From assembly GCF_015169395.1 (NCBI RefSeq), contig NZ_CP063458.1, positions 6,510,001-6,574,000 on the forward strand: a DNA stretch of 64,000 nucleotides, in the 5' to 3' direction. Shown here one piece after another: positions 16,485 through 52,469 of this stretch; position 1 is the stretch's first letter; the number at the start of each line of letters is the position of its first letter. This DNA comes from Humisphaera borealis (lineage in GTDB: Bacteria > Planctomycetota > Phycisphaerae > Tepidisphaerales > Tepidisphaeraceae). The translations under genes were made by a program, and so were the position numbers. The notes below the pieces were generated by a model. The model was not told where the DNA came from. It ran no database searches and saw nothing but the letters and a program-made list of their open reading frames with translations.

Positions 16485-16724
16485 TTCACCACGAAGAGCA
16501 CGAAGATCGCGGAGGACACGAAGAGGAGCGACCAGGTTCGTCGACTCTCTCAACGGTCATCCTGAGAGTATGTGAGTTTTTAAGGAGCCGCGCACGGAGT
16601 GTACTCACGCAGTAAGCGGGGAATGACCCCAAACCGACACAGTTCCCGCTTACTCCGTGAGTACACTCCGTGCGCGGCTCCTTAAAAAGACTCTTCCGCT
16701 TCTCTTCGTGCTCTTCGTGGTGAA
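16485..16724. repeat. Nested 240-bp inverted-repeat element
   Basis: The outer arms are a perfect 22-bp inverted pair at 16485-16506 and 16703-16724, built from reiterated CACGAAGAG words. Inside is a hairpin, 16577-16688, with 46-nt arms that match at 44 positions around a 20-nt loop. It contains GGAGCCGCGCACGGAGTG and its complement. No protein is encoded. It fills the 319-bp gap between two plus-strand genes and looks like a non-autonomous, MITE-like unit or a composite of two repeat families. Confidence 0.85.
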
Positions 16725-43551: not shown

Positions 43552-44499
43552 ATGCAATCGATGACCCAAACCGACACCTGGACTCGCAAACACCTCCTGA
43601 CGCTCGAAGAGCTGTCCGCCGACGAGATCCGTTTCGTTCTCGACACGGCCCACTCCTTCAAGGAAGTCAGCACCCGCTCCGTGAAGAAAGTGCCGGCACT
43701 GCGCGGCAAGGTGGTGGTCAACGCGTTCTTCGAAGACTCCACCCGCACCCGCACCAGCTTCGAGCTGGCCGCCCAGCGCCTCGGCGCCGATGTCATCGCG
43801 TTTACTGAGAAAGGGTCGAGCGTCAGTAAGGGTGAAACGCTGGTAGACACCGCGCGAAACATCGAGGCGATGGGGGTCGACGTCATCGTCTGCCGCCATC
43901 AGGCCGCCGGCAGCGCGCAGGTGCTGGCCCGCACGCTCGGCTGCAGCATCGTGAACGCCGGCGACGGCGCACACGAGCACCCGACGCAGGGCCTGCTCGA
44001 TCTCTACACAATCCGCGAGCGGTTCGGGCGGATCGAGGGGTTGAAGGTGGCGATCGTCGGCGACATCGCCAACAGCCGAGTGGCGCGGAGCGATCTGTGG
44101 GGGCTCAAGAAGATGGGTGCCGAGGTGATCCTCGTCGGCCCGCCGACGCTGCTGCCCAAGAGCTTCGAAAAGCTCGGGGCGCGGGTGGTTCACAGCCTTG
44201 ACGAGGTGATTGGCGAGGTGGATGTCGTCAACATGCTTCGCGTGCAGTTCGAGCGGATCAAGAGCAGTCAGTTCCCCACGGTGCGCGAGTTCACGCGTTT
44301 CTTCGGCCTGACGTGGGACCGCTTCCAGAAGTGCAAGCCCGGCGTATTCGTGATGCACCCCGGCCCCATGAACCGCGGTATCGAGATCAGCAGCGACATC
44401 GCCGACGGCCCCCAGAGCGGCATCTTAAAGCAGGTAACCAACGGCTTGGCAGTGCGGATGGCGGTGCTGTACTTGGTGACGCAGACCTCGGGCAGATGA
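43552..44499 (+). CDS. pyrB: Aspartate carbamoyltransferase catalytic chain
   Basis: A protein of 315 aa. Two close starts: MQSMTQTDTW at 43552 or MTQTDTW nine bases later. The carbamoyl-phosphate site FFEDSTRTRTSFE is exact, GSSVSKGETLVDT is the flexible loop, DGAHEHPTQGLLDLYTI follows, and VMHPGPMNRGIEI is the C-terminal signature. It transfers the carbamoyl group to aspartate in pyrimidine synthesis. No regulatory chain gene pyrI is present. Confidence 0.97.
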   Translation: MQSMTQTDTWTRKHLLTLEELSADEIRFVLDTAHSFKEVSTRSVKKVPALRGKVVVNAFFEDSTRTRTSFELAAQRLGADVIAFTEKGSSVSKGETLVDTARNIEAMGVDVIVCRHQAAGSAQVLARTLGCSIVNAGDGAHEHPTQGLLDLYTIRERFGRIEGLKVAIVGDIANSRVARSDLWGLKKMGAEVILVGPPTLLPKSFEKLGARVVHSLDEVIGEVDVVNMLRVQFERIKSSQFPTVREFTRFFGLTWDRFQKCKPGVFVMHPGPMNRGIEISSDIADGPQSGILKQVTNGLAVRMAVLYLVTQTSGR

Positions 44500-44556
44500 G
44501 AGGGCCGAGTTGCGAAAGTATTTGTCGGCAATTGTAGTGTTGCCGCGGTGTTTCGT

Positions 44557-45094
44557 GCGCCAAGAGCGCCAAGGAGCCAAGAGAGCCAAGGAATAGGAGG
44601 TGGCCAAATGCCATACGACAACGAACTGCTGCCCGGCCCGGACCTCCACGAACCTCCCGAGGAACTCGACATTTTGGTTCGCCGAGTCAACGGCGCGGCA
44701 ATTGAAGTTCATCGCCGCTTGGGAGCAGGGCTGCCAGAAAGCTCCTACGAGAACGCGATGGCGATCGAGATGACCGAGCGAGGAATCCCCTTTGAGCGTC
44801 AGAAGCGGCTGGAGATCTTTTACAAGGGCGTTCGCGTGGGTTACGTCAAAGTGGACTTTCTGGTCGACGGGAAGCTGATCGTTGAACTGAAATCCGTTGT
44901 TGAGATCATGCCGCCGGATCGTAGACAGGTGAAGACGTATATGCGGATCATTCGACAGCCACTTGGCCTGCTCTTGAACTTCAATGTCGCCCTGATGCGC
45001 GAAGGCATCCATCGCATCATCGCGTCAGACTTCGATCCCTAATTCTTTCCTTCGCCTCTGCTTGGCTATCTTGGCTTCTTGGCGCTCTTGGCGC
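44557..45094 (+). mobile_element. GxxExxY gene cassette flanked by 34-bp inverted repeats
   Basis: The arms at 44557-44590 and 45061-45094 are inverted copies matching at 32 of 34 positions. Each is built from reiterated GCCAAGA words (GCGCCAAGAGCGCCAAG at the outer end). They enclose only one gene with its own strong ribosome-binding site. The 538-bp unit sits precisely in the gap between pyrB and pyrC, ending 23 bp before pyrC. No transposase is inside. Interpreted here as a mobilisable or formerly mobile cassette; no target-site duplication was identified. Confidence 0.55.
44608..45042 (+). CDS. GxxExxY protein (PD-(D/E)XK_3 family)
   Basis: A protein of 144 aa from MPYDNELLPG, with an excellent ATAGGAGGTGG site eight bases upstream. 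The eponymous motif is visible as GLPESSY in IEVHRRLGAGLPESSYENAM. The nuclease-like core follows: GYVKVDFLVDGKLIVELKSV (Asp, then Glu-x-Lys). Characterised biochemistry is lacking for the family; the motif arrangement suggests a PD-(D/E)XK fold. It interrupts the pyr cluster and is flanked by inverted repeats. Confidence 0.9.
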   Translation: MPYDNELLPGPDLHEPPEELDILVRRVNGAAIEVHRRLGAGLPESSYENAMAIEMTERGIPFERQKRLEIFYKGVRVGYVKVDFLVDGKLIVELKSVVEIMPPDRRQVKTYMRIIRQPLGLLLNFNVALMREGIHRIIASDFDP

Positions 45095-45117
45095 GATTAG
45101 AAATGCACAGAATCGAT

Positions 45118-46404
45118 ATGCCCACTCTCCTCATCCAAAACGGCACGATCCTCGACCCCTCCCAGAACCTCGAACGCAAGGGCGACCTGCTGTTGCGCGA
45201 CGGTAAGGTGGAAGCAGTCGGTGATGTTGGCGCTGTCAATGCCGACCGCGTCATTGACGCCACCGGCCTGTACGTCACGCCGGGGCTGATCGACATTCAC
45301 GTCCACTTCCGCGAGCCCGGCGACGAAGAAGAGGAGACGATCGCCTCCGGATCGGCCGCTTCGGTGGCAGGTGGGTTCACTACCGTCTGCTGCATGCCGA
45401 ACACCAAGCCGGCGCTGGACAACGAGGCGCAGATCGAGTTCGTCTTCCGCGAATCGAAGAAGGCCAACCTCGCCAACGTCTACCCCATCGGCGCGATCAC
45501 CAAGGGCCGTGAGGGCAAGGAACTCGCCGAGATCGGCACCATGCACGAACGCGGCGCGATCGCGTTCTCCGACGACGGCGTCGGCGTTGCCGATGCGTCG
45601 GTCATGCGAAAGGCGTTGCAATACTGCAAGATGTTCGATGCCCTGATCATGCAGCACTGCGAAGAGCCGTCGCTGTCGGGCGGGGCGATGCACGCGGGGC
45701 TCGTCTCGATGACGCTCGGCCTGCCCGGCATCCCCGCCGAGGCCGAGCAGCTCATGATCGGCCGCGATCTGCTGCTGGATCGCACCATCGGCTGCCGGTA
45801 CCACGTGCAGCACATCAGCACCGCCGGCAGCGTCGAGCTCATCCGCCGGGCCAAGCGCGATAAGCAGCACTACGTGACCGCCGAGGTCGCGCCGCACCAC
45901 CTGCTGCTGACGGACGAGGACTGCCGCACGTACGACACCAACTACAAAATGAACCCGCCGCTGCGGACGGCCGAGGACGTCGCGGCGTGCATTCGCGGCG
46001 TGGTCGACGGCACGATCAACATCCTCGCCACCGACCATGCGCCGCACCTGGCCGAAGAGAAAGAGCTGGAGTTCACCCGCGCCCCGTTCGGCATCATCGG
46101 CATCGAATGCGCCCTGCCCCTTTACATCAAGGCCCTCATCGAGCCCGGCCATATCGGCTGGCTGAAAATGGTCGACATGATGAGCACCGGCCACGCGCGC
46201 ATCGTTCGACTGCCCAACAAGGGCACACTGAAGGTCGGTGCCGATGCCGACGTGACGCTGATCGATCCGAACCTCAAGTGGAAGATCGACGCCGAGCAGT
46301 TCGTCAGCAAGAGCCGTAATTGCCCCTTCCACGGCTGGGACGTCACCGGGCGTGCGGTCGCGACGATCGTCGCGGGGGACGTGAAGTGGGAACTGAAACG
46401 ATAG
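45118..46404 (+). CDS. pyrC: Dihydroorotase
   Basis: About 428 aa from MPTLLIQNGTILDPSQNLE. An ATG 15 bases upstream is an alternative, and neither has a strong ribosome-binding site. Class I dihydroorotase marks: GLIDIHVHFREPGDEEEETI with the HxH zinc pair, TTVCCMPNTKPALD, AFSDDGVGVADA, YHVQHISTAGSVELI and NILATDHAPHLAEEK with the catalytic Asp. It closes carbamoyl-aspartate to dihydroorotate, the step after PyrB. The usual direct pyrB-pyrC spacing is broken by the GxxExxY cassette. Confidence 0.96.
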   Translation: MPTLLIQNGTILDPSQNLERKGDLLLRDGKVEAVGDVGAVNADRVIDATGLYVTPGLIDIHVHFREPGDEEEETIASGSAASVAGGFTTVCCMPNTKPALDNEAQIEFVFRESKKANLANVYPIGAITKGREGKELAEIGTMHERGAIAFSDDGVGVADASVMRKALQYCKMFDALIMQHCEEPSLSGGAMHAGLVSMTLGLPGIPAEAEQLMIGRDLLLDRTIGCRYHVQHISTAGSVELIRRAKRDKQHYVTAEVAPHHLLLTDEDCRTYDTNYKMNPPLRTAEDVAACIRGVVDGTINILATDHAPHLAEEKELEFTRAPFGIIGIECALPLYIKALIEPGHIGWLKMVDMMSTGHARIVRLPNKGTLKVGADADVTLIDPNLKWKIDAEQFVSKSRNCPFHGWDVTGRAVATIVAGDVKWELKR

Positions 46405-47890: not shown

Positions 47891-49206
<1,316 letters not shown>

Positions 49207-49209
49207 AGC

Positions 49210-49446
49210 TCACCGATCTTTCGTCTTGGCGGTAGTCCGCTTCGCCGGCCGGGTGATAATCTCCAGCCCCAGGGCTTCAGCCAGCCGTTCCATGTTCTCG
49301 AAACTCAAGCCCGCCTCACCGTTCAACAGCTTCGCCAGGTGCGACTGGTCGATGCCGGTTTCCTTCCACAGCCGATAGCGCGTTTTCTCGCTCGCCTTCA
49401 TTGCCTTGCGAAGATCATCCAGCACGTTGCCCATGTCGAACATCAT
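49210..49446 (-). CDS. XRE-family HTH regulator
   Basis: A protein of 78 aa. The start could be MMFDMGN (49446) or MGNVLDD four codons later. The helix-turn-helix is RYRLWKETGIDQSHLAKLLNGE, followed by LSFENMERLAEALGLEI, typical of Cro/C1-type repressors. Three bases separate it from the integrase, so it probably controls its own transcript with the integrase and hence mobility of the island. Confidence 0.88.
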   Translation of the reverse strand: MMFDMGNVLDDLRKAMKASEKTRYRLWKETGIDQSHLAKLLNGEAGLSFENMERLAEALGLEIITRPAKRTTAKTKDR

Positions 49447-49481
49447 ACATCATACCGGAATGCAATTCCAGCATTCTCCGT

Positions 49482-49787
49482 TCACAACAGCCCGTGGCGT
49501 TCAAGCCAGCCCCGATGTCCTGGGTGAATCCATACCGTCCGCCCGTCTGGCGTCAGATAGGGGACAAGCTGCGCCAGTTGCTCGGCCATCCGTCGGTCCA
49601 GCGCCGCGCGTTTCGCAACCTCAACCAGCAGTTTCGCCTTGTGGGTTTTCAGCCGAGCGGCCAGATCCGCGGTAACAGCTTCGTGGGGCCGGAAGCAAAG
49701 ACGGTCTCCGTCCGCATGGAGCTGGATGCACAGAGCGTCCAGTTCGGCCAGCAGCCCCTCCACAGTGTCGGGGGTCACCGCGTTCAT
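49482..49787 (-). CDS. TubC N-terminal docking-domain-like small protein
   Basis: A protein of 101 aa from MNAVTPDTVEGLLAELDAL, whose ATG overlaps the primase stop (ATGA). LLAELDALCIQLHADGDRLCF and LAARLKTHKAKLLVEVAKRA resemble the TubC_N fold, best known as a docking domain on NRPS/PKS subunits but often seen as a stand-alone or fused domain beside mobile-element primases. The C-terminus (TPDGRTVWIHPGHRGWLERH) is unassigned. Probably a partner or subunit of the primase it is coupled to. Confidence 0.7.
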   Translation of the reverse strand: MNAVTPDTVEGLLAELDALCIQLHADGDRLCFRPHEAVTADLAARLKTHKAKLLVEVAKRAALDRRMAEQLAQLVPYLTPDGRTVWIHPGHRGWLERHGLL

Positions 49788-52219
49788 ACTTCGCCCCAAT
49801 CTCCGTCGTCGGCCTCGCCCGTGTCTACAGCGCCAACGTCTACGGAACCCGTTCCCTGCCCCGCCAAGGGAGGTTTCGTTGGCGCAGCGGTGCGGTTTAA
49901 TGGACGCTGTGTAGACGCGGTCGGCGTGTTCAGGTGGAAGATTCGAGTCGGTCGGCCGCCCCGCGCACTGGGACCCTGTTGTTCCCACCGTCCCTCCCCG
50001 GCTTCGACCAGGGCCTGCAGTGCACCGCTGGCGTCGTCGGCGGTCGTGTACAGCCGGCTTGACTGTTGCAGGTCACGAACCGTCACGGTTCCACCCTTGC
50101 GCTGGATCAATTCCACCAGCCGTCGGCGGTCGCGCTGTTCATCGTCTTCACCCAGCGCGCCGTAAACCCGCCGGGCCTCTCCCTTGAACCAGTCCGTAAC
50201 CGCAATGGCTCGCTCGATATGATCTCGACTGATGGCCGCGATGGGCTGGCCGGTTGTCGCAGCATCGACGCACGCGAACAGCAGCCCGATCCGAATGCAG
50301 ATCCCCTTCAGTTTGCCGAAGTGTGCGGCCAGATCGTCGGCGTGAATATCTGCCACTTCGCGACCGTGTGCATCATGCCACGTGACATAGACCGTTTTGG
50401 CGTCAGGGGCCAGGGGAATCAGTCGAGGACGCGACTTGCCCTGATCGTCCGTGCCCGGCTGGATGTTCATCAACGCCCGCAACAGGTTCGCCCAATCCGT
50501 TGCCGTGGCGTCTGAAAGTTCCTCATCAGTCCAGACAACGGGCTGGGTAGGGGGCTGCACCAGCAGCAGGCGCGCCAGCAGTCCCGATTCCCGCTCGGCC
50601 GCGCCGAACACCCGGCGCAACGTGCCGGGCTGGATGCTTCCCAGCACGCTTACCGATCCCCGCTCGACAAAGATCGTCCCTGCGGCACCCTTGCGGTCGA
50701 TCATGGAGGGCGCGGCATCAAAGAATGACAGCCAGACGGGTGCATCGCTGCCCTTTCCGCCTGCCGCGTAACGGTCGAAAGCGCCGACCCACGCGGCCAG
50801 TTCATCACGGACCAGCAGCAGCCCCAACGGGTTGTCCTGCAGAAGCACGCCCAGCTTTTCGCAGGTCACGTCCGAAACCATCAGCCGCTGCTCCGTCGGC
50901 GGCTCCGGTTCTACTGGCGGATCGCTGGGGCCGGTCCCTTTCTTCTGAGCGTCCTTCCAGCGGTTCCGCTCCACTTCATGGCGTTGCGAATCGGCCTCGT
51001 ATGCGACCATGTCGTTGGCGAATTGCTGGCGTGCCTCCTTGTACATTTCGACCAAAGGGCGAGTCGCCAGTTTCAATACGGCACTCTTGGCTGTGCCGGA
51101 TCGGGCGACGATGGCGCCCCAGAGGATTGCGGCTTCCGTCCATCCACGTTTCACTTGCGCGGCCACGCGATTGCCGATCGCTCCGGCCAGGACCACCAGC
51201 ACCGTCAACGATGCACAGGCGGGGTCGGTACCCGTCGCCGCCGCAAGTTCAGTTACGAACCCACGCAGAGATTTGGGCAGGGCATCGGTGGGGAACGGCT
51301 TGAATCGCTCCACCGCCGGCGGGCGAGGTGCCGGGGCCTCCGGCTCGGCCGCGGTCAACAGCGCCGCCAGTTTTGTCTTGATCGCGTCGGGGTCTTCGCC
51401 ACGGTCCACAACGTCGGCGATGTCGCCACCAACGGGCAGATCGGACCATGTGTCACGCAGGTCAATCACACGCACGCGGGCCGGCGGACTCAACTTCACC
51501 AGAATGGCCGAAACCTCGGCCGCGTACTTCGCGCCCGCCTTGTCCGCGTCGGGAACAATCACCACGTCGCGACCGGCCAGTGGCGTCCAATCCGATTTCC
51601 CCGCAGCTTGGGCACCGCCGGCGGACGTAGCTACCAGCAGCCCCAGACCGGCTGCCGAATCGGCTGCTTTCTCCCCCTCGGTGACATAGACGCGCTCGCC
51701 AGGCCGGGCAGTCAGGTCGGGCAGGTGGTACAGCGGGCGAGGTTCGGGCATGGCGCTAATGGTCCAGCCACCGATCGCACCAGGTCGCCGGCTCACCGGC
51801 CGAATGTCCTTCCCGCCGTTTGTCAGGTTCCACCGCACGACCATTCCCACCGGCTCCCCGTCGGCGTTGTAGTAATTCCACATCACCGCAAGGGGGCCCT
51901 TCCGGCGCTCAAGTTCCGCAACCGCTTCTGCCGCCGTGGCGAAGGTCAGCCCGGGCTTGTGCATTGGCTTAGCAGGCTTTCGCGTCGGGGGCGATTCGAT
52001 CTTTTGCGGCATCAGATCCGCGAGCTGCAAGCCGAGCGCCGCCGTGATGGCGACTGGGGTACATCCTGCGTGGCAATGAACCAATGCGCCGCCGGCATCG
52101 CCTTCGCCGATGCTCAGGCTGGGCTGATCGTCGTCATGTGCCGGGCAGCGGACTGACCAGCCCGCACCGTTGCGCTTCGCGTCGGGCAACTTCGACAAGA
52201 GCAGTTCAAGCGGCGTCAT
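49784..52219 (-). CDS. CHC2 primase / Toprim / DUF3987 helicase-like replication protein
   Basis: A protein of 811 aa from MTPLELLLSKLPDAKRNG, with GGGGGAG upstream. A zinc-binding CHC2 module uses Cys25, His28, Cys49 and Cys53. A Toprim-like segment shows VYVTEGEKAADSAAGLGL and DVVIVPDADKAGAKYA. The C-terminal DUF3987 P-loop region (from about residue 310) has AIVARSGTAKSAVLK as a Walker A-like loop and LLLVRDELAAWVG as a Walker B-like strand. Such proteins prime and unwind DNA for replication of integrative elements and phage satellites. Overlaps both neighbours (14 bp with the upstream HTH gene, 4 bp with the downstream gene). Confidence 0.9.
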   Translation of the reverse strand: MTPLELLLSKLPDAKRNGAGWSVRCPAHDDDQPSLSIGEGDAGGALVHCHAGCTPVAITAALGLQLADLMPQKIESPPTRKPAKPMHKPGLTFATAAEAVAELERRKGPLAVMWNYYNADGEPVGMVVRWNLTNGGKDIRPVSRRPGAIGGWTISAMPEPRPLYHLPDLTARPGERVYVTEGEKAADSAAGLGLLVATSAGGAQAAGKSDWTPLAGRDVVIVPDADKAGAKYAAEVSAILVKLSPPARVRVIDLRDTWSDLPVGGDIADVVDRGEDPDAIKTKLAALLTAAEPEAPAPRPPAVERFKPFPTDALPKSLRGFVTELAAATGTDPACASLTVLVVLAGAIGNRVAAQVKRGWTEAAILWGAIVARSGTAKSAVLKLATRPLVEMYKEARQQFANDMVAYEADSQRHEVERNRWKDAQKKGTGPSDPPVEPEPPTEQRLMVSDVTCEKLGVLLQDNPLGLLLVRDELAAWVGAFDRYAAGGKGSDAPVWLSFFDAAPSMIDRKGAAGTIFVERGSVSVLGSIQPGTLRRVFGAAERESGLLARLLLVQPPTQPVVWTDEELSDATATDWANLLRALMNIQPGTDDQGKSRPRLIPLAPDAKTVYVTWHDAHGREVADIHADDLAAHFGKLKGICIRIGLLFACVDAATTGQPIAAISRDHIERAIAVTDWFKGEARRVYGALGEDDEQRDRRRLVELIQRKGGTVTVRDLQQSSRLYTTADDASGALQALVEAGEGRWEQQGPSARGGRPTRIFHLNTPTASTQRPLNRTAAPTKPPLAGQGTGSVDVGAVDTGEADDGDWGEV

Positions 52220-52469
52220 TGGCTCCCCCTTCGGGCTTTGCCCCGTCCACCGCTTTGGTCGCCTGCGTCTGTTCATCCAACCAACGGACCAGTGCCGCCG
52301 TGGGATACATGATCCTCTTTCCCCGCCGAACGTGGGGCACGTCGCCGTCCTGCGTCCACTGCCACAGCGTCCGCTCGCAGACGCCCAAGGCCTTAGCCGC
52401 TTCACGCGGGCGAAGCGCCAGGCAGGGCGTGGTCGGGTCCCCGATACGATTCAGAAGGGGATTACTCAT
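52206..52469 (-). CDS. Excisionase/MerR-type HTH protein
   Basis: A protein of 87 aa: MSNPLLNRIGDPTTPCLAL, then RPREAAKALGVCERTLWQWTQDGDVPHVRRGKRIMYP, the winged HTH_17 signature of excisionases and DNA-binding adaptors. It overlaps the primase gene by 14 bp and the upstream HTH gene by 8 bp, so all are translationally linked. Likely a recombination directionality factor or a regulator of island replication. Confidence 0.85.
   Translation of the reverse strand: MSNPLLNRIGDPTTPCLALRPREAAKALGVCERTLWQWTQDGDVPHVRRGKRIMYPTAALVRWLDEQTQATKAVDGAKPEGGANDAA

Follow-up and report, generated by a model that had tools for sequence, protein, structure and literature searches.

The GxxExxY gene between pyrB and pyrC of Humisphaera borealis is probably, although by no means certainly, the gene-bearing member of a two-part, nuclease-driven selfish hairpin system resembling REPIN/RAYT. 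A nuclease gene between inverted arms made of reiterated words, together with scattered empty hairpins carrying the same word, suggests an as yet undescribed type of miniature selfish DNA. The window, i.e., the whole 64,000-nucleotide stretch of DNA analyzed, corresponds to positions 6510001-6574000 of one 7.19-Mb contig, which carries four GxxExxY genes.

Structure of the unit between pyrB and pyrC

The unit (window positions 44557-45094) lies between the open reading frames (ORFs) of two host genes, pyrB upstream (43552..44499; homologues in 21 of 21 relatives) and pyrC downstream (45118..46404, with its start at 45103 or 45118; recovered by tblastn in relatives), and all its parts are on the forward strand. 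The left arm (44557..44590) contains four GCCAAG words, at 44559, 44568, 44576 and 44585 (spacing 9, 8 and 9), and the right arm (45061..45094), its mirror image, starts 18 nt past the GxxExxY stop codon. A repeat search paired these 34-nt arms, 470 nt apart, at 32 of 34 positions (94%), reproducing both the match and the reiterated words of the preliminary description, and their alignment score was 58 versus 29 for the best of 685 shuffles under the same scheme. The claim that the arms enclose only a GxxExxY gene with its own ribosome-binding site also held: the gene (144 aa), from the ATG at 44608 to the TAA at 45042, was identified by profile matches, conserved columns and an AlphaFold model, and direct reading of the sequence placed a good site, AGGAGGTG, at 44595..44602.

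Two other features of the window were recorded. Downstream of the pyr genes, a tyrosine-recombinase-like ORF (47923-49206, reverse strand) lies beside a large primase/helicase-like ORF (49784-52405, reverse strand), and this pair (47923-52405) is possibly an integrated element. A single CACGAAG-word arm stands on its own at 16490-16523.

The GxxExxY protein

The window protein matched TIGR04256 (GxxExxY) with 124 bits (cut-off 35) and PF13366 (PDDEXK_3) with 125 bits (cut-off 22). Pfam and NCBIfam gave no other assignment in the unit, and therefore no S23 four-helix-bundle ORF; nor is a RAYT (tyrosine/HUH) transposase encoded there, the PF13366 gene being the sole one enclosed. The family is also present in many other phyla, including Archaea. 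Residues E44, D83, E93, K95, Q107 and Y111 are near-invariant in the family and all present in the window copy. The AlphaFold model (pLDDT 90.8, pTM 0.82) had Cas4 (4ic1, Z 9.6), lambda exonuclease, LHK-Exo and MGME1 as its top matches with Foldseek and VIA-align. This structural similarity is of moderate strength (best Z 9.6; Foldseek E about 1e-3), and a sequence search of the PDB returned no relative of the protein. Catalytic residues of the D, ExK and QxxxY type are thus combined with a fold of the RecB/Cas4/lambda-exonuclease type, and E44, D83, E93 and K95, together with the Q107xxxY111 motif, match the RecB/Cas4 branch, a group of enzymes that process single strands or the ends of DNA. 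Consequently, the protein is modeled as a compact Cas4/lambda-exonuclease-like PD-(D/E)XK nuclease, its activity being inferred.

Inverted arms around GxxExxY genes

The preliminary description had proposed collecting GxxExxY loci and looking for flanking inverted word repeats, whose absence around other GxxExxY genes would have refuted it. We took the best inverted alignment between the 300-bp flanks of each gene, with a score threshold of 30. This score was reached at 82% of 137 loci, so that nearly all GxxExxY genes are armed: 53 of 58 loci in relatives and the own phylum, and 59 of 79 in other phyla. The arms are thus found at most of the planctomycete loci for which they had been proposed, but the system is not specific to PVC bacteria. 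The loci examined span Alphaproteobacteria, Betaproteobacteria, Chloroflexota, Acidobacteriota, Bacteroidota, Cyanobacteria, Spirochaetota and others, although the roughly 80 cross-phylum loci came from a narrow-alignment scan and are biased to the GPGLLES subfamily. Short words can pair by chance, and a chance or low-complexity coincidence was considered for this reason; since none of the 685 shuffles reached the threshold, this explanation is hardly credible and was ruled out. Flanks paired across different loci reached the threshold in 13% of cases, and random ORFs of the own genome in 6 of 448 (1.3%). An ordinary terminator reading of the arms was likewise ruled out by controls.

At many loci, the arm word is a 7-mer near CRCNRAK, spaced at 8 to 10 bp, within a layout of ACC/GCC plus CRCNRAK words that lacks the GTAG or CGTC end tag of REPIN/RAYT. 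Each locus has its own word dialect, identical in the left and right arms. Terminal inverted repeats, the classical hallmark of transposons and MITEs, are therefore a property of the window unit and of most GxxExxY loci.

According to the neighboring ORFs, the units favor operon junctions such as moxR-DUF58, trpE-trpG, carA and mutA-mutB, and annotation adds fabD-fabG, radA and ade as further neighbors. The moxR-DUF58 operon is a recurrent position: GxxExxY genes lie within it or next to it in Acidobacteria and in several planctomycetes (L161, L146, L178 and L025, with L001 and L029 nearby). Another recurrent position, at trpE, was seen in the betaproteobacterial loci L162, L168, L184 and L185.

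Gene-free hairpins of the resident dialect

All four GxxExxY genes of the H. borealis genome have inverted arms, each with its own word: CGCCAAG in the window unit, CACGAAG/CACAAAG at L001, CACGAAG/CGCGAAG at L002 and CACAGAT at L003. The 25-bp core of the left arm of the window unit, GCGCCAAGAGCGCCAAGAAGCCAAG, was found again in gene-free hairpins at contig positions 6198546, 3283508 and 6657787. At the first of these, facing GCCAAG arms about 20 bp apart are nested in the loop of a CGAAGG-word hairpin, and the other two have similar structures. Pattern searches and an even 864-kb sample were used to survey such hairpins in this genome. The pattern CRCNRAKN{1,3}CRCNRAKN{1,3}CRCNRAK had 425 matches versus 7 for the reversed pattern, and 38 triplet arms were counted in the sample, of which 20 belonged to inverted pairs whose loops measured 22 to 248 bp; CACAGAT hairpins were nested within CACGGAG hairpins. 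The commonest gene-free hairpin word (L207-L246), CACGGAG, has no counterpart at any of the four resident GxxExxY genes, as would be expected had the corresponding gene been lost.

The relative G007, with a single GxxExxY gene, offers a simpler case. Its arm pattern, CACAGATNNAAATCAGATGCACACAGAT, occurs 43 times, including the two arms of the gene, and not once in 20 relatives. Its solo hairpins have common outer flanks (TTTTNGC) and a common loop motif, and two of them, separated by 1.2 kb, enclose the same loop but differ in their flanks, a recent copy. Furthermore, 12 of 30 arms adjoin words of another hairpin, versus 59 of 6000 random windows, which indicates that hairpins enter the loops of other hairpins. 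Nesting with a fixed order (outer CACAGAG, middle CGCAGAT, inner CGCGAAT) was also seen at many places of the G020 genome (L070/L089 contigs, e.g., G020:C1:87597-87809).

Such extragenic repeats could instead serve host regulation, with the arms acting as target sites or terminators for a domesticated protein that binds DNA or RNA. Most arms are indeed extragenic (30 of 38 are located outside long ORFs in a sample that is 84% coding by the same measure), and heptamer direct repeats upstream of start codons in Beggiatoaceae have been read as regulatory (PMC4679880). However, the unrelated flanks of identical-loop copies, the nesting, the privacy of the dialects and the preserved catalytic residues are more in keeping with mobile DNA, and we regard a regulatory role as very unlikely. 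With regard to mobile DNA, an enzyme gene with flanking repeats accompanied by dispersed hairpins of the same sequence class is one of the requirements of REPIN/RAYT, and the present system fulfils it. The cassette initially described thus needs amending, as most of the system is outside it, in the form of dispersed gene-free hairpins.

Word dialects and the protein tree

We compared words and proteins on a tree of 102 GxxExxY proteins (300 shuffles; tree support was low). Whole words changed 50 times on the tree versus a shuffle minimum of 58, and word positions 3, 4, 5 and 7 each changed fewer times than in all 300 shuffles. CATGAAG is limited to one clade, made up of a Thermodesulfobacteriota member and two planctomycetes, and all xxxxACG words fall in one small clade. 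Words ending in T (12 loci) occur solely in the subfamily with a short C terminus, the G/T split at position 7 being essentially one deep split of the protein. A residue-by-residue search for specificity positions returned only this deep split, without independent support, and tests restricted to the cross-phylum loci were weak (Mantel p 0.05; whole-word changes inside the shuffle range). Within one genus, orthologous copies with surroundings about 80% identical carry CGCGAAG in both arms in one species versus CGCAGAG in both arms in the other, where one word reads CGCTGAG. Since both arms switched word together, the words change in concert. In the loci compared, each dialect is confined to its own locus or genome and tracks the protein phylogeny.

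Arm number, S23 genes and rival explanations

TIGR02436 (S23) is the protein of 23S intervening sequences (IVSs), which were described more than 30 years ago, and is related to Avd of diversity-generating retroelements. Its genes were first used as a negative control for the arm test. Outside rRNA, however, 25 of 29 of them in the relatives (L277-L306) have inverted arms of reiterated words (AGTTGCTAGTTG, GTTCAAGG, GTAGGCAGTACGCAG and GTCATTTGTCATTG), of a class distinct from the GxxExxY words. They are therefore unusable as a negative control, for which random ORFs serve, and the nuclease is not needed for the arm architecture as such.

Across the 21 relatives, the number of arms is correlated to the same degree with the copy numbers of GxxExxY and of S23, so the two effects are inseparable there, but a two-factor table of 199 genomes of the phylum, about half of which have a GxxExxY gene, separates them. 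The median number of arms was 40 in genomes with the gene (control pattern, 2) versus 3 in those without (control, 1; Mann-Whitney, 4e-20), and the effect persisted whether S23 genes were absent (p 5e-5) or present (p 7e-8). Among genomes at least 98% complete, at least 12 arms were found in 20 of 25 with the gene versus 0 of 6 without. As exceptions, G058, G070, G028 and G174 have 41 to 237 word arms and no recognizable GxxExxY gene. A search for a decayed gene in such arm-rich genomes returned only sub-threshold fragments, and incomplete assemblies, a lost gene or another driver could each account for them. Opposite exceptions, with the gene and few arms, are G087, G199 and G164.

These arm-rich genomes, the presence of two unrelated protein families in word arms and the free nesting of hairpins in one another's loops would all suit a model in which unidentified other machinery spreads the hairpins while GxxExxY and S23 genes merely persist in the loops as passengers. 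That model sits poorly with the different word classes of the two families, with a dialect that follows the GxxExxY tree and with an arm number tied to GxxExxY independently of S23, which makes it rather improbable in our judgment.

The S23 parallel also raises the possibility of an IVS-like RNA element, whose arms would form an RNA stem excised by RNase III and whose protein would be an RNA-binder or a passenger, the spread occurring otherwise. The entire window unit is predicted to fold as a single RNA stem-loop closed by the arms (z -4.2), and the 428-nt IVS of Coxiella 23S rRNA, which is cut by RNase III, encloses an S23 gene in a terminal stem of 28 bp (PMC4990558); S23 genes elsewhere have word arms as well. 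Excision from operon transcripts would make insertion into an operon harmless, and many units do lie at operon junctions, co-directional with their neighbors (82:34 and 86:30). The unit itself is not in a 23S rRNA gene (no rRNA match in 44000-45600) and had no match in an Rfam search. Base pairing, however, does not call for three or four repetitions of a word in each arm, or for a word common to gene-bearing and solo hairpins, while a word-reading protein would, which favors a nuclease-driven element. The RNA reading also leaves unexplained the protein-tracking dialects and the dozens of gene-free copies of the same dialect; we consider it unlikely, though not negligible.

Filled and empty sites

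The unit had been described as interrupting a conserved pyrimidine gene order, to be checked by comparing orthologous pyrB-pyrC gaps, and presence of the gene at the same place in all distant relatives would have refuted the cassette reading. The comparison did find short empty gaps, with pyrB and pyrC adjacent at 20 to 114 bp in G003, G010, G012, G013, G014 and G019, and the place is not always occupied. The gap is not always clean (it is occupied in G006, G007 and G002), and several relatives lack pyrB-pyrC adjacency within the stretch compared. In G002, it holds a GxxExxY gene with a different word (CGCGAAG), whose protein is 44% identical to that of the window next to a pyrB that is 83% identical; in G007, it holds a gene-free CACAGAT hairpin, and in G012 a single arm. 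The gap of G006 (L053) has a HigB/HigA-like toxin-antitoxin pair instead, and that of G005 (L051) a gene-free hairpin of AACGAATAACG / TTATTGGTGATTTG words that resembles the S23 class.

A second site was observed in genus g15, the one whose orthologous copies switched words, where the groEL-dnaJ gap contains arms and gene in G053 and G113 and neither in G015 and G190, which represent two species of the genus. The empty site of G015 has a flank 89% identical, and its junction was not resolved to the base. This empty site could represent a loss, and it is undecided which of the two states came first; none of the sites compared showed a strain-level insertion with exact junctions or a target duplication. 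The gene was present in only 8 of 72,556 plasmid records, which indicates that plasmids are not the main vehicle. Having survived both conditions that would have refuted it, and with a site filled in some members of a genus and empty in others, the initial reading of a small mobile cassette is supported. A further amendment is that the enclosed enzyme is itself likely the mobility or maintenance factor, because the family tracks the words.

Proposed mechanism and significance

In the nuclease-driven system that we favor, the GxxExxY protein would recognize the reiterated 7-mer in the arms, probably as a hairpin or an exposed single strand, and would cut or process the DNA, leading to copying of the hairpin into new locations. 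Gene-bearing copies would be autonomous, and gene-free hairpins of the same dialect would be non-autonomous, as REPINs are to RAYT. If one protein acts on all words of a dialect, the words would be kept similar inside each arm, across the two arms and from copy to copy, and would drift together in each lineage. The arms, dialects, gene-free and nested hairpins, and filled and empty sites are shown, within the limits of genome comparison; word recognition, nuclease activity and the role of the nuclease in copying are inferred. More tentatively, and with somewhat less than even confidence, GxxExxY and S23/Avd-type proteins could each define a branch of a single undescribed class of selfish DNA, "word-armed hairpins", characterized by a word-reading protein, word homogenization, copying into hairpin loops and a recognition code readable from sequence.

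We found no description of a word-armed GxxExxY element in the open literature (preprints and most subscription journals were outside the search) and no relevant occurrence of typical arm strings there. As far as the accessible portions of this literature extend, GxxExxY is barely mentioned, with nothing about repeats. The association with arms gives a concrete, testable role to a large family without known function and accounts for a conspicuous class of dispersed repeats in the host genomes. Should the protein turn out to drive copying, miniature hairpin elements would be powered by a Cas4-like nuclease as well as by tyrosine transposases, and the recognition of a 7-mer by a 115-residue domain could be decoded from the many naturally occurring protein-word pairs. 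The four-helix-bundle parallel also bears on how 23S IVSs may have spread.

Comparison with known systems

Cas4, lambda exonuclease and MGME1, the best fold matches, have the PD-(D/E)XK core with the QxxxY motif in common with GxxExxY, which is much shorter and has no CRISPR or recombination partner seen adjoining. As in MITEs, the elements are short, include non-autonomous copies and have terminal inverted repeats, but they have no DDE transposase, no target duplication was seen, and their arms are word arrays of a locus-specific dialect. Like 23S IVSs (PMC4990558), the units measure about 430-540 nt and have a single small gene and a terminal inverted repeat of about 30 bp as a stem; however, IVSs lie in 23S rRNA helices and encode S23, whereas the window unit lies in a protein operon and encodes a nuclease. 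Non-rRNA S23 genes have the word-arm plan in common with GxxExxY units.

The nearest published repeat is the TAACTGA heptamer of Beggiatoaceae, Cyanobacteria and Bacteroidetes, for which a mobile binding protein has been considered (PMC4679880). It is likewise an intergenic, reiterated 7-mer of patchy distribution, but forms direct repeats of a single word, without a linked gene or inverted arms. In the REPIN/RAYT system, the RAYT is a tyrosine (HUH) transposase and the REPs are short palindromes, often tagged with GTAG/CGTC (Bertels and Rainey 2011, PMC3116915). Both systems have inverted repeats around an enzyme gene and numerous non-autonomous hairpins, scattered over extragenic DNA and specific for the resident enzyme, although the enzyme of GxxExxY units is a PD-(D/E)XK nuclease and their arms consist of three to four reiterated 7-mers. 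Since transposase and repeat tags are absent, the window unit is not a member of REPIN/RAYT but resembles it in its logic.
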